In this document: positions 54,673 through 57,117 of the stretch, one piece after another
Numbering within the stretch: the first letter of the stretch is position 1
How the letters are laid out: each line of letters begins with the position of its first letter
Origin: Terriglobia bacterium
GTDB lineage: Bacteria > Acidobacteriota > Terriglobia > Terriglobales > Acidobacteriaceae
Reading direction: 5' to 3'
Length of the DNA: 64,000 bases
NCBI GenBank assembly: GCA_020073495.1
Contig: JAIQFD010000003.1
Location: forward strand, 248,001-312,000
Position numbers and translations under genes: made by a program
Notes under the pieces: model-generated
Seen by the model: only the letters and a program-made list of their open reading frames with translations
What the model was told of the DNA's origin: nothing
Database searches by the model: none

Positions 54673-54885
54673 TGTCTGGGATCCCGAAATCGGGCCCATT
54701 CCTAGAGTAGCCGCTCCGCTTTTTGCCACTCTCCTAGCACGCAAACAGCCGCAATTCAAGCTGCCAAAGTGCAACTTCTGAATTTTCGCTTGCGTCACAT
54801 TGGACAGGTGTAAGATTTGCCTTGGAGCGTCATTGGCAGTGGTGCGGAATGGGCGCGGGTTCCTTACCGCGTCCCCGAGGTACCC

Positions 54886-55929
54886 ATGAACGTGCATGTC
54901 TCCTACAAGGCCGCAAGAGCTCCCGAAGTCGAAAAAGAATTCCACCACCAGATCGAGAAACTGGGCCGTCGGCTCGCCGTCTTTCGCCCCGAACTGATCC
55001 ACCTGAAAGCCATTGTCGAGGAGACTAACCCCCGGGAGGGAATCGCTGTCTCTTTGAACCTGCGGCTGCCCTCCGGACAAATGGCGGCGCAGCAGGCCAA
55101 CCACGCCGCCATCTCGGCGGTGAAATCAGCCTTCGCCGACCTGCTCTCGCAGCTCACCAAGCACAAGGACCTGCTGCGCGGGCAGAAGCGGCATCCGGCC
55201 CGCCGCGGCACCGAGGACAGCCAGTTGCGCGACGTGGTCCCTTTTGAGCAGACGTTTGCCGCCGTCCATCCCGTCCGGATCTCCGACGCCGATATCGCCA
55301 GCTGGGTGAACGCTAATCTGGAGCGTTTGAACGCCTTTGTCGAGCGGGAGCTGGCCTACCGCGAAGCTAACGGCCTGCTGCCGGAAGACGCGGTCAGCAA
55401 GGAAGAGGTCATCGACGAGGCCATCGTCACCGCCCTGGGCGACGAAGAAAAACCCGAGCTGTTGACGCTGGAGCGCTGGCTTTACCGCCTGTCCCTGCGC
55501 GCCATCAACCAGGTCAACGCCGGCAACCACGAGGCCGTGACCGCAGTCCCCCTGGAGGATTCCGCGCGCAAGCAGAACGTCCGCGCCAGTGACGAATCCG
55601 AACTCCAATACCATCAGCCCGACGAGATGCTCCACCGCTCCGACGTCATCCCCGACCTGCGCACCTCCAATCCGGAGCAGGCCGCCGCTTCTGTCGAGAT
55701 GGTCAACCTGGTGGAAAGCGTGTTGCGCGGGGCACGGCGCGAAGACCGCGAGGCTTTCATCCTTTTCGCCATCGAAGGGTTCACCCTCAACGAGATCGCG
55801 GCCACGACCGACCGTACGGCCGATCAGGTTCGCGGTTCCATCACCGCCGCGCGTGAGCTGGTCCGGCAGAAGATGCCCTCGGCCAGCCTATGGCGCGACA
55901 AGCTTCTCCAACATACCAAGATAGCCTGA
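54886..55929 (+). CDS. HPF ribosome-hibernation domain fused to an ECF-like sigma domain pair
   Basis: 347 residues from ATG 54886. Residues ~1-100 have the HPF/RaiA fold pattern: MNVHVSYKAARAPEVEKEF, HLKAIVEETNPREGIAVSLN and a long helix ISAVKSAFADLLSQLTKHKD. After a linker, residues ~130-210 look like sigma region 2 (LNAFVERELAYREANGLLPED, EEVIDEAIVTALGDE, LTLERWLYRLSLRAI). Residues ~275-330 look like region 4 (RREDREAFILFAIEGFTLNE, EIAATTDRTADQVRGSITAA). HPF parks ribosomes as inactive dimers. The fusion may be a hibernation factor whose other half touches RNA polymerase, or a scaffold that kept only the fold. Followed by an eRF1-like gene 24 bp away. Confidence 0.8.
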   Translation: MNVHVSYKAARAPEVEKEFHHQIEKLGRRLAVFRPELIHLKAIVEETNPREGIAVSLNLRLPSGQMAAQQANHAAISAVKSAFADLLSQLTKHKDLLRGQKRHPARRGTEDSQLRDVVPFEQTFAAVHPVRISDADIASWVNANLERLNAFVERELAYREANGLLPEDAVSKEEVIDEAIVTALGDEEKPELLTLERWLYRLSLRAINQVNAGNHEAVTAVPLEDSARKQNVRASDESELQYHQPDEMLHRSDVIPDLRTSNPEQAAASVEMVNLVESVLRGARREDREAFILFAIEGFTLNEIAATTDRTADQVRGSITAARELVRQKMPSASLWRDKLLQHTKIA

Positions 55930-55953: not shown

Positions 55954-57117
55954 ATGATCACGCGTGATGAACTCCGTTATCTGGCACAGATCGAGAATAC
56001 GAACAATTCCGCCATCAGTTTCTATTTCCAACCCCGGACACCCAAGGACAAGTCGCACCGCGAAGAGATGATCCTGCTCAAGGACATGGTGCGCGACGCG
56101 CTCCGCCAGGCCGAGCACGGGACCGGCAACGGCAGGAAGAAGGAGGACCTGCACCGCATCCTGGAACAAACCGAGCAGTGGAAGGGAGGCTCGAAGGCGA
56201 AGGTGATCTTCGCCTGTGGCGCTCAGGAGATCTGGCGCGAGTTCGATGTCCCTCCGCACCTGGTGAGTTCCCAGCTCATCGTTAATGACGGCTTCCACCT
56301 CAAACCACTGGCGCGTCTGGTCGAGGCCTTTCCGCGCGCCTGCGCCGTCGTCCTGGACCGCGAGCACGCCCGCTTCTTCACCATCCGCGTGGGCGAGATC
56401 CAGGAAGCCGGCGAGATCCGCACTCCGCTGCCGCGTAAGGCGCGCACCGATGGCTTCGCCGGCTACAACGCGGGCCACAGGGAACGCCACGCGGACAACG
56501 AGGCCATGAAGCACTTCAAGGAAGTTGCCGAGCGGCTCCAGGGCCTGCAGCAGTCGGCCGGATGCGAGCGCTTCCTGGTCGGGTGCCGCGAGGACACCTG
56601 GCCCGACGTCGAGCCGCACCTGCATCCTTACGTGAAGCAGCGCCTGGTGGGCCGCTTCACCGTGGATCCCGCCCTGGTCACCACGCAACAGGTGCACGAG
56701 CACGCCACCCGCTTGCTCCAGGAGCACGCGCAATCCCAGCGGCGGGACATGGTGCGCGAGGCGCTCGGCGAAGCGCACCGCAATGGCCGCGGCGCCGTCG
56801 GCCTGCGCCACGTCCTGCTGTCGCTCGAGCGCGGCGAGATCCAGGCCCTGTTACTGGGCGAGAATTTCTGCGCCACGGCGGCGCGCTGCCTGCATTGCGG
56901 CCACCTCGACACCCGCGTGGTTCGCCATTGCGCCGTGTGCGGCAAGGAGACCCGGGAGATTGACGACATCGCCGACGCCCTCGTCGGCGTCGCCATCCGC
57001 AAGGGCCTTCCTGTCGTGTACGTCCGCGACCAGCCCGATTTCGAGCGCGCGGGCAACATCGGCGCCCTGCTCCGCTTCCGCGCCGACCAGAGCACGCCCA
57101 AGAAACTCGCGGTGTAG
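55954..57117 (+). CDS. Bacterial eRF1-like protein (baeRF/Balon-like) with zinc ribbon
   Basis: 387 residues, AGGAGA 8 bases before the ATG. The layout follows archaeo-eukaryotic release factors: an N-terminal domain (IENTNNSAISFYFQP), a central domain with CAVVLDREHARFFTIRVGEI, and the helix after the usual GGQ loop (RHADNEAMKHFKEVAERLQ). The GGQ itself is absent; AGHRERH stands there, so peptide release is not expected. Near residue 320 a C-x2-C ... C-x2-C zinc ribbon (CLHCGH, HCAVCGKE) is visible. Bacterial relatives include Balon, a hibernation factor that enters the ribosomal A site, and the baeRF families. The adjacent HPF fusion supports a hibernation role. Confidence 0.78.
   Translation: MITRDELRYLAQIENTNNSAISFYFQPRTPKDKSHREEMILLKDMVRDALRQAEHGTGNGRKKEDLHRILEQTEQWKGGSKAKVIFACGAQEIWREFDVPPHLVSSQLIVNDGFHLKPLARLVEAFPRACAVVLDREHARFFTIRVGEIQEAGEIRTPLPRKARTDGFAGYNAGHRERHADNEAMKHFKEVAERLQGLQQSAGCERFLVGCREDTWPDVEPHLHPYVKQRLVGRFTVDPALVTTQQVHEHATRLLQEHAQSQRRDMVREALGEAHRNGRGAVGLRHVLLSLERGEIQALLLGENFCATAARCLHCGHLDTRVVRHCAVCGKETREIDDIADALVGVAIRKGLPVVYVRDQPDFERAGNIGALLRFRADQSTPKKLAV

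Follow-up and report, generated by a model that had tools for sequence, protein, structure and literature searches.

An HPF-type ribosome hibernation domain fused to sigma-70-like regions 2 and 4 in Acidobacteriota and on mobile elements: a possible link between dormant ribosomes and RNA polymerase

Results

The locus and the domains of the fusion protein

The window, as we call the whole 64,000-nucleotide stretch of DNA analyzed here, carries on its forward strand an HPF-sigma fusion gene (54886-55929) and, next in the same operon, a gene for a Balon-type ribosome hibernation factor (55954-57117). The fusion gene starts with the ATG at 54886, its stop codon ends at 55929 and its product has 347 residues. 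A likely ribosome-binding site, GAGG, is found at 54877-54880, and by eye a similar sequence occupies the same spot in most orthologs, which backs the assigned start. Based on the NCBIfam yfiA profile, a structural model and PDB matches, residues 1-99 (54886-55182) were assigned to an HPF/RaiA-like domain with the order beta-alpha-beta-beta-beta-alpha. A linker, mostly disordered in the model, covers residues 100-133 (55183-55284), and is followed by a sigma region 2-like domain at residues 134-212 (55285-55521) with the region 2.2 helix EEVIDEAI, which was placed using the sigma70-ECF profile, the model and an alignment with ECF sigma factors. Motif counts and alignments define a family signature, LQYHQPDE...PE, at residues 240-264 (55603-55677), which aligns with the sigma region 3.2 finger. 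The last domain, at residues 263-329 (55672-55872), resembles sigma region 4 in profiles, model, VIA and ECF alignment.

The original prediction had named an HPF/RaiA-like domain in residues ~1-100 and sigma region 2- and 4-like blocks in residues 130-330, and profile searches of the two halves found both relations. In NCBIfam, yfiA/HPF matched residues 15-96 (E 0.002) and sigma70-ECF (TIGR02937) matched residues 151-330 (E 3.9e-7), each below its curated cut-off; relatives L145, L157, L163 and L165 scored above the cut-off of TIGR02937. The Pfam matches of the window protein, all below gathering, were PhyR_sigma-like (2.9e-4), Sigma70_r4_2 (0.0021) and Ribosomal_S30AE (PF02482, 0.039). For PF02482 the window protein reached 15.1 bits against a gathering threshold of 23.7, which was passed by L145 (35.2 bits) and L163 (24.1 bits) and missed by L164, L165 and L157, while scans of L168 and L169 with this model gave no match. 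In the distant relative L145 both domains exceed Pfam gathering within one frame, since Sigma70_r4_2 also scores there, at 34.9 bits against 25.7. A phmmer search of the PDB with the window protein (E up to 1) returned four sigma-type chains and no HPF chain, and the HPF part of L145 alone, well scored by Pfam, found no HPF by phmmer against the PDB either. A profile built from 29 orthologs recovered both ECF sigma factors (best 1.8e-9) and HPFs (best 4.6e-4).

Structure prediction of the full chain agreed with the profiles. The AlphaFold model (mean pLDDT 74.7, pTM 0.32) folds residues 1-99 like HPF, residues 134-212 into a three-helix domain similar to region 2 and residues 263-329 into a domain similar to region 4. 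In the stretches between them (101-127 and 215-244) pLDDT is below 50; at this pTM the relative placement of the domains is not readable from the model. Foldseek matched the model to HPF chains (E 6.4e-5) and to ECF sigma chains (8.7e-4). With VIA, the HPF domain gave Z 15.3 to 8rd8_D, a chain from a 70S-Balon-RaiA structure; the rows were mainly HPF, and several sigma rows had an rmsd above 20. Within the HPF domain, K25 and K94 are present in all 30 aligned sequences from the window's family and a second family of its order, and position 92 is K or R in 97% of 62 aligned sequences, one of which is the long HPF of the window's own genome. These basic residues (K25, K92, K94) sit on the rRNA-facing helices. 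They are weaker in 14 members from plasmid records, where the position of K94 holds V, F, I or L. The long HPF of the own genome is a separate 196-residue frame with an extension; long HPF carries a small dimerization domain. An HPF/RaiA domain and sigma-70-like regions 2 and 4 are thus fused in one chain.

The Balon-type neighbor

The downstream gene (55954-57117, forward strand, 387 residues) was assigned to baeRF_family10 from Pfam, NCBIfam and Foldseek. It matches PF18854 above gathering (E 1.9e-21) and the NCBIfam MSMEG_1130 family below its cut-off (5.8e-14), and it is the sole baeRF_family10 match in its genome. In Foldseek its model, which has an aeRF1-like fold, matched ribosome-bound Msmeg1130, of the Balon kind, best (8v9j_z, E 3.9e-23, TM 0.75/0.79), followed by aRF1 (4.5e-19). 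Among 85 Balon-type sequences, a set in which some genomes occur twice because two collections were drawn on, NIKS is absent (0/85), the string GGQ occurs anywhere in the chain in only two, and AGH and GGH are found in 52 and 32, respectively. Four cysteines (C312, C315, C326 and C329) are invariant in 31 aligned Balon-type proteins, a pattern that suggests a zinc ribbon.

A Balon-type gene lies directly downstream of the fusion gene in 73 of the 80 named loci (the best 80 of 119 relatives). Two of the other seven run off the contig, and five have 1.8 to 5.9 kb of downstream sequence without a match. A profile of the gene from the window's family, which could miss a divergent homolog, found none beside seven fusion genes of the second family (~1.4 kb downstream of each) and, at 18 loci from phylum genomes outside the class (distant members below), found one at L143 only. 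The title of PDB entry 8rd8 places RaiA and Balon together on one 70S ribosome, and the available text of a Balon study states that Balon genes most often adjoin raiA (PMC10901736). The pairing at our locus is best explained as a ribosome-dormancy operon.

Distribution of the family

Of the 37 genomes in the window's family, its own included, 23 have matches across both halves, as do 13 of 14 genomes in the second family. Among ten genomes sampled at the level of the class, one matched over both halves (E 4.6e-17, residues 1-311), and two others matched within the HPF part alone. Scanning named genomes turned up 119 relatives, the best 80 of which all carry Acidobacteriota-type names. An even sample of 396 genomes from across the phylum yielded 20 with near full-length matches (E 1.1e-37 or better), of which 14 lie outside the class, together with three that have weaker or partial ones. 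The fusion, which the original prediction had suggested seeking elsewhere in Acidobacteriota, is therefore present in both families and in other classes of the phylum.

Spread outside the phylum was assessed from plasmid records. A tblastn search of 72,556 records hit 32 at E 1e-3, 15 of them with at least 80% query coverage, and the organisms found at this and at a laxer limit are alpha-, beta- and gamma-proteobacteria. Scored with a profile of the two acidobacterial families, ten alpha and beta members gave 9.8e-47 to 8.6e-43 and four gamma members 8.3e-21 to 6.8e-20 (~residues 26-331), and an Azospirillum protein without the HPF domain gave 5.5e-24. Members in these records are annotated as sigma factors (sigma-70, sigma-28 or FliA in several) or as hypothetical proteins; in the rows inspected, the sigma half is sometimes annotated and the HPF half never.

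Trivial origins of the fusion were considered and rejected. A frame or annotation artefact is ruled out by its recurrence on many genomes and contigs, chance similarity by the agreement of two independent domains in both sequence and fold, and a recent event confined to a single genome by its spread across genomes.

Residues kept and lost in the sigma-like half

The sigma-like half was compared with nine canonical ECF sigma factors from nine related genomes, including the window's own, which a motif filter had selected from 30 sigma loci. The family side comprised the 54 sequences that remained after two fragments and two loci of the window's family had been removed beforehand from the distant set and seven more (five of the second family, two distant) had been dropped for lack of the motif used for cutting, so the comparison leans towards motif bearers. 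Net charge in region 2.3/2.4 falls from +4.56 in the ECFs to +0.39 in the window's family (n=23), -0.50 in the second family (n=2), -0.14 in distant members (n=14) and -0.73 in plasmid members (n=15), with p 7e-7, and that of the recognition helix from +4.56 to +1.78, -0.50, +0.29 and -0.93 in the same order, with p 2.7e-6, where both p-values treat related sequences as independent. The acidic character of the region 2.2 helix is retained (-2.89 in the ECFs; -3.04, -3.00, -2.50 and -1.80 in the four groups), and its glutamine, invariant in the nine ECFs, is aspartate in 49 of 54 family sequences. Region 2 of the window protein reads WLYRLS where the ECFs of its relatives have WLVRIA, and the tryptophan is missing from the four gamma members.

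Most of the basic residues with which ECF sigma factors hold promoter DNA have thus been lost, both in region 2.3/2.4 and in the -35 recognition helix, which bears out the original suggestion that promoter binding might be gone. The loss is smallest in the window's own lineage and greatest in plasmid members. As the window lineage keeps a recognition-helix charge of +1.78 and has R in 17 of 23 sequences at a position where ECFs have K, DNA contact would be weakened, not excluded. In a tree of the sigma parts a long branch separates the family from the nine ECFs, but with support of 0.061 for the family as a whole and 0.72 for the window's family the tree is too poorly supported to count fusion events.

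Between regions 2 and 4 lies an insertion of the form [FYW][YHW]QPDE.L..ED[LIV]..D....PE. Its QPDE core was found in 99 of 103 sequences of the window's family (a set that also holds some genomes twice, from two collections), 15/15 plasmid members, 0/7 of the second family and 16 of 20 in a set of 18 distant loci plus two from the window's family; among the four misses of that set, two have F before QPD and one is cut by a contig end. In alignments the motif corresponds to the WhiG region 3.2 finger (6pfj, E 1.2e-4 over 231-314) and, weakly, to that of sigma-A by hhalign (E 0.0026, probability 11.6%), where the global mode gave no match, and it is not present in the nine ECFs compared. The label 'ECF-like' given to the protein at the outset therefore fits only in part, since the linker of most lineages aligns with a finger of the WhiG/sigma-A type. 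When sigma factors are bound to RNA polymerase, their region 3.2 finger is placed in the cleft and their region 2.2 on the clamp.

The operon promoter

A likely promoter, TTGCGT-N15-TAAGAT, was recognized as a conserved element upstream of the operon (54790-54816, forward strand), in which GGTG immediately precedes the -10-like hexamer (GGTGTAAGAT, 54807-54816). GGTGTA occurs in 83 of 94 non-redundant upstream regions of the window's family; the top 6-mer of one shuffle reached 14. A looser promoter pattern could be aligned in 88 of the 94 (three regions had no match and three more were unused), and conservation at the motif itself is built into this alignment by the pattern. The conserved profile is TTG-N15-TAnAAT with GGGTG before the -10 and a weak -35. 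This form is unlike the usual -10 of ECF promoters and would fit a promoter of the sigma-A type better than one of the ECF type.

In 80 loci (827,667 bases), GGTGTANAAT has 74 exact sites, all 74 at the operon promoter, and two control patterns of the same kind gave 0 and 2 sites in the same loci. Written as GGGTGTA[CGA]AAT (window 54790-54816; upstream regions L031-L110), the element was observed among the 80 loci at the operon promoter only. The window's own genome has five exact GGTGTANAAT sites elsewhere, against two for a reversed control; each lies 16-74 bases before a possible ORF start, and two precede genes taken by eye for asd and isocitrate lyase. In 25 genomes, GGGTGTANAAT has 36 sites against 16 for the reversed control. 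The search for a regulon with this element, in the own genome and these 25, yielded no clear regulon.

Other gene contexts and the heat-resistance island

Members outside the window's lineage keep company with chaperone and protease genes (Hsp20, ClpK, FtsH, HdeD, GroEL, DnaK). On alpha-proteobacterial plasmids the gene belongs to islands with the order Hsp20 x3, MarR, FtsH, AAA ATPase and HPF-sigma, with HdeD close behind, and in beta-proteobacteria it adjoins Hsp20 and precedes groES-groEL-dnaK. In E. coli and Klebsiella the member is a 'hypothetical protein' between hdeD-GI and trx-GI and is, by its place, orf11 of the tLST island; at L168 (8575-9720), tLST orf11, also annotated as hypothetical, belongs to the HPF-sigma family. 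In Acinetobacter the member follows hdeD-GI and no trx-GI is listed, and the P. fragi member is flanked by a DUF308 gene and trx-GI. In two gamma members scanned with Pfam, only region 4 was seen, and no Balon-type gene was found among the annotated neighbors of tLST orf11 members. Among 5,426 complete E. coli genomes, 152 have a match to orf11, which in 144 covers 80% or more of the gene. In the available part of one E. coli study, orf11 is not in the list of seven genes whose loss cut heat or chlorine resistance, and its loss left lipid oxidation unchanged (PMC8407380); another source, as far as available, describes orf11 as interrupted in LHR2 (PMC5383660).

Several single arrangements were also observed. 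An Azospirillum record (L175, 4908-6805) encodes a sigma2-QPDE-sigma4 protein without HPF whose gene overlaps a baeRF_family10 gene by 4 bases, which may represent this system in unfused form. At L143 (3521-6074) the order is HPF-sigma, a small gene for a zf-HC2-like (anti-sigma-like) protein and a Balon-type gene; the middle gene has the motif HLDACAAC and scores 17.4 bits, below the cut-off of 22.2. The same genome (G428) holds a second HPF-sigma copy, L144, with a STAS gene as its next gene downstream, as is also the case at L157 (E 1.2e-20 and 3.1e-18). The distant fusion genes L145, L147, L149-L151 and L156 directly precede one type of gene in a metabolic context, an aminotransferase by Pfam at L145 and similar in appearance at the others. 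At L147 an OB-fold/HD-domain gene lies upstream.

Discussion

The N-terminal 99 residues of the window protein have the fold of HPF/RaiA (YfiA, PF02482) and its basic residues, but the chain then continues into a sigma-like module of ~200 residues. No such fusion appears in any title, abstract opening or text passage covered by our literature searches. The domain-association section of a 2026 HPF/RaiA study covers lHPF, HPF/RaiA and HibA only, and in HibA, an archaeal HPF/RaiA protein, the second module is CBS, not sigma (PMC13324472). Alternative sigma-70 genes are listed among the members of Balon operons in the available part of PMC10901736; there RaiA and sigma are separate genes, while in the window they form one protein, next to a gene of the Balon/Rv2629/Msmeg1130 (baeRF) kind. 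Like ECF and group 3 sigma-70 factors, the family has regions 2 and 4, and most lineages also share a linker that resembles the finger; it differs in that its basic residues for promoter contact are largely lost and the region 2.2 glutamine is replaced by aspartate in 49 of 54 sequences. tLST/LHR orf11 belongs to the same family, but is more divergent.

We tentatively read the protein as a hibernation factor with a sigma mimic that would bind RNA polymerase, or regulators of sigma, but not read promoters, and would so couple the dormancy of both machines; we put this at somewhat below an even chance. The HPF domain would dock in the mRNA/tRNA channel of idle ribosomes, with the Balon-type protein filling the A site of these ribosomes. 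On its flexible linker, the sigma-like half would act as a mimic that keeps the surfaces for core RNA polymerase (the region 2.2 helix, the region 3.2-like finger and the region 4 fold) and no longer reads promoters. It could occupy or tether RNA polymerase, keep the housekeeping sigma off, or park the polymerase beside a silent ribosome, so that transcription and translation would fall asleep and wake together. The fusion, its two folds, their conservation, the Balon-type partner, the lost DNA-contact charge and the spread of the family are computational results, from which we infer ribosome binding, RNA polymerase binding and their coupling, and the physical link between the two machines would be the best of several readings. 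The chaperone and protease neighbors of other members speak for it. Against it stand the lack of the QPDE motif in the second family, the missing region 2 tryptophan of the gamma members, the weak hhalign match, the recognition-helix charge that the window's lineage keeps and the absence of orf11 from the seven E. coli genes whose loss lowered resistance; the Q-to-D change in region 2.2 and the reduced charge of this region in plasmid members mean that polymerase binding could also be weaker.

A different use of the same domains would be a working alternative sigma leashed to idle ribosomes by HPF, where ribosome occupancy sets the amount of free sigma, which may drive its own operon. In its favor, the protein has both region 2 and region 4, the promoter element is found nowhere else in the 80 loci, the window's family keeps part of its region 4 charge and the annotation of several plasmid members reads sigma-70, sigma-28 or FliA. 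We nevertheless regard it as unlikely: most DNA-contact charge is gone from regions 2.3/2.4 and 4, most strongly in plasmid members, the conserved element departs from the usual ECF -10 and has a weak -35, and the 36 GGGTGTANAAT sites against 16 for the control in 25 genomes define no clear regulon. That same loss of DNA-contact charge would suit a sigma-like half that has left transcription and serves the ribosome, for example as a module for dimerization or rRNA binding, comparable to the C-terminal domain in long HPF. The separate 196-residue HPF of the genome means that the fusion could be a specialized ribosome factor, and some distant copies adjoin metabolic genes. Without an RNA polymerase partner it is hard to see why the region 2.2 helix has stayed acidic and why most lineages conserve a 3.2-like finger, and the Azospirillum sigma-like half, which stands alone with its gene overlapping a Balon-type gene, indicates that this half is kept without fusion to HPF, so that we consider such a ribosomal role somewhat improbable.

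The sigma-like domain of PhyR functions as a sigma mimic with an altered recognition helix. The window protein would likewise be such a mimic, carrying HPF in place of a receiver domain, and its sigma-like half might bind an anti-sigma factor and free a true sigma when ribosomes idle. In line with this, PhyR_sigma-like is its top Pfam match (21.0 bits, below the cut-off of 27), the response regulator 9by5 is among its best PDB matches, and a zf-HC2-like gene occurs at one distant locus and a STAS gene directly downstream of the fusion at two others. Pfam finds no receiver domain at E up to 0.5, the ORF list inspected by eye has no anti-sigma gene beside the window operon, and a finger-like motif would be unneeded in such a decoy, which makes this reading decidedly unlikely. 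Returning to the coupling of ribosome and polymerase, its fullest version is a single-chain dual-hibernation factor in which HPF silences the ribosome and a sigma mimic, blind to promoters, plugs core RNA polymerase or holds it on a tether. It would pair with a Balon-type factor in soil Acidobacteriota and spread by way of plasmids and, in the form of the unexplained orf11, of the tLST stress island. We offer this composite as a possibility that is on balance doubtful.

Entry into dormancy requires that transcription and translation both be quieted. In E. coli, Rsd (acting on sigma/RNA polymerase) and RMF (acting on ribosomes) are separate proteins under coordinated control, according to the available parts of PMC6904343 and PMC6134199, and the published links between the two shut-downs, as far as we found in such sources, are regulatory. 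With modules of both kinds in one protein, the coupling would become a physical one that can be tested directly. HPF-sigma proteins are carried by some soil bacteria and by mobile stress-tolerance islands of other bacteria.
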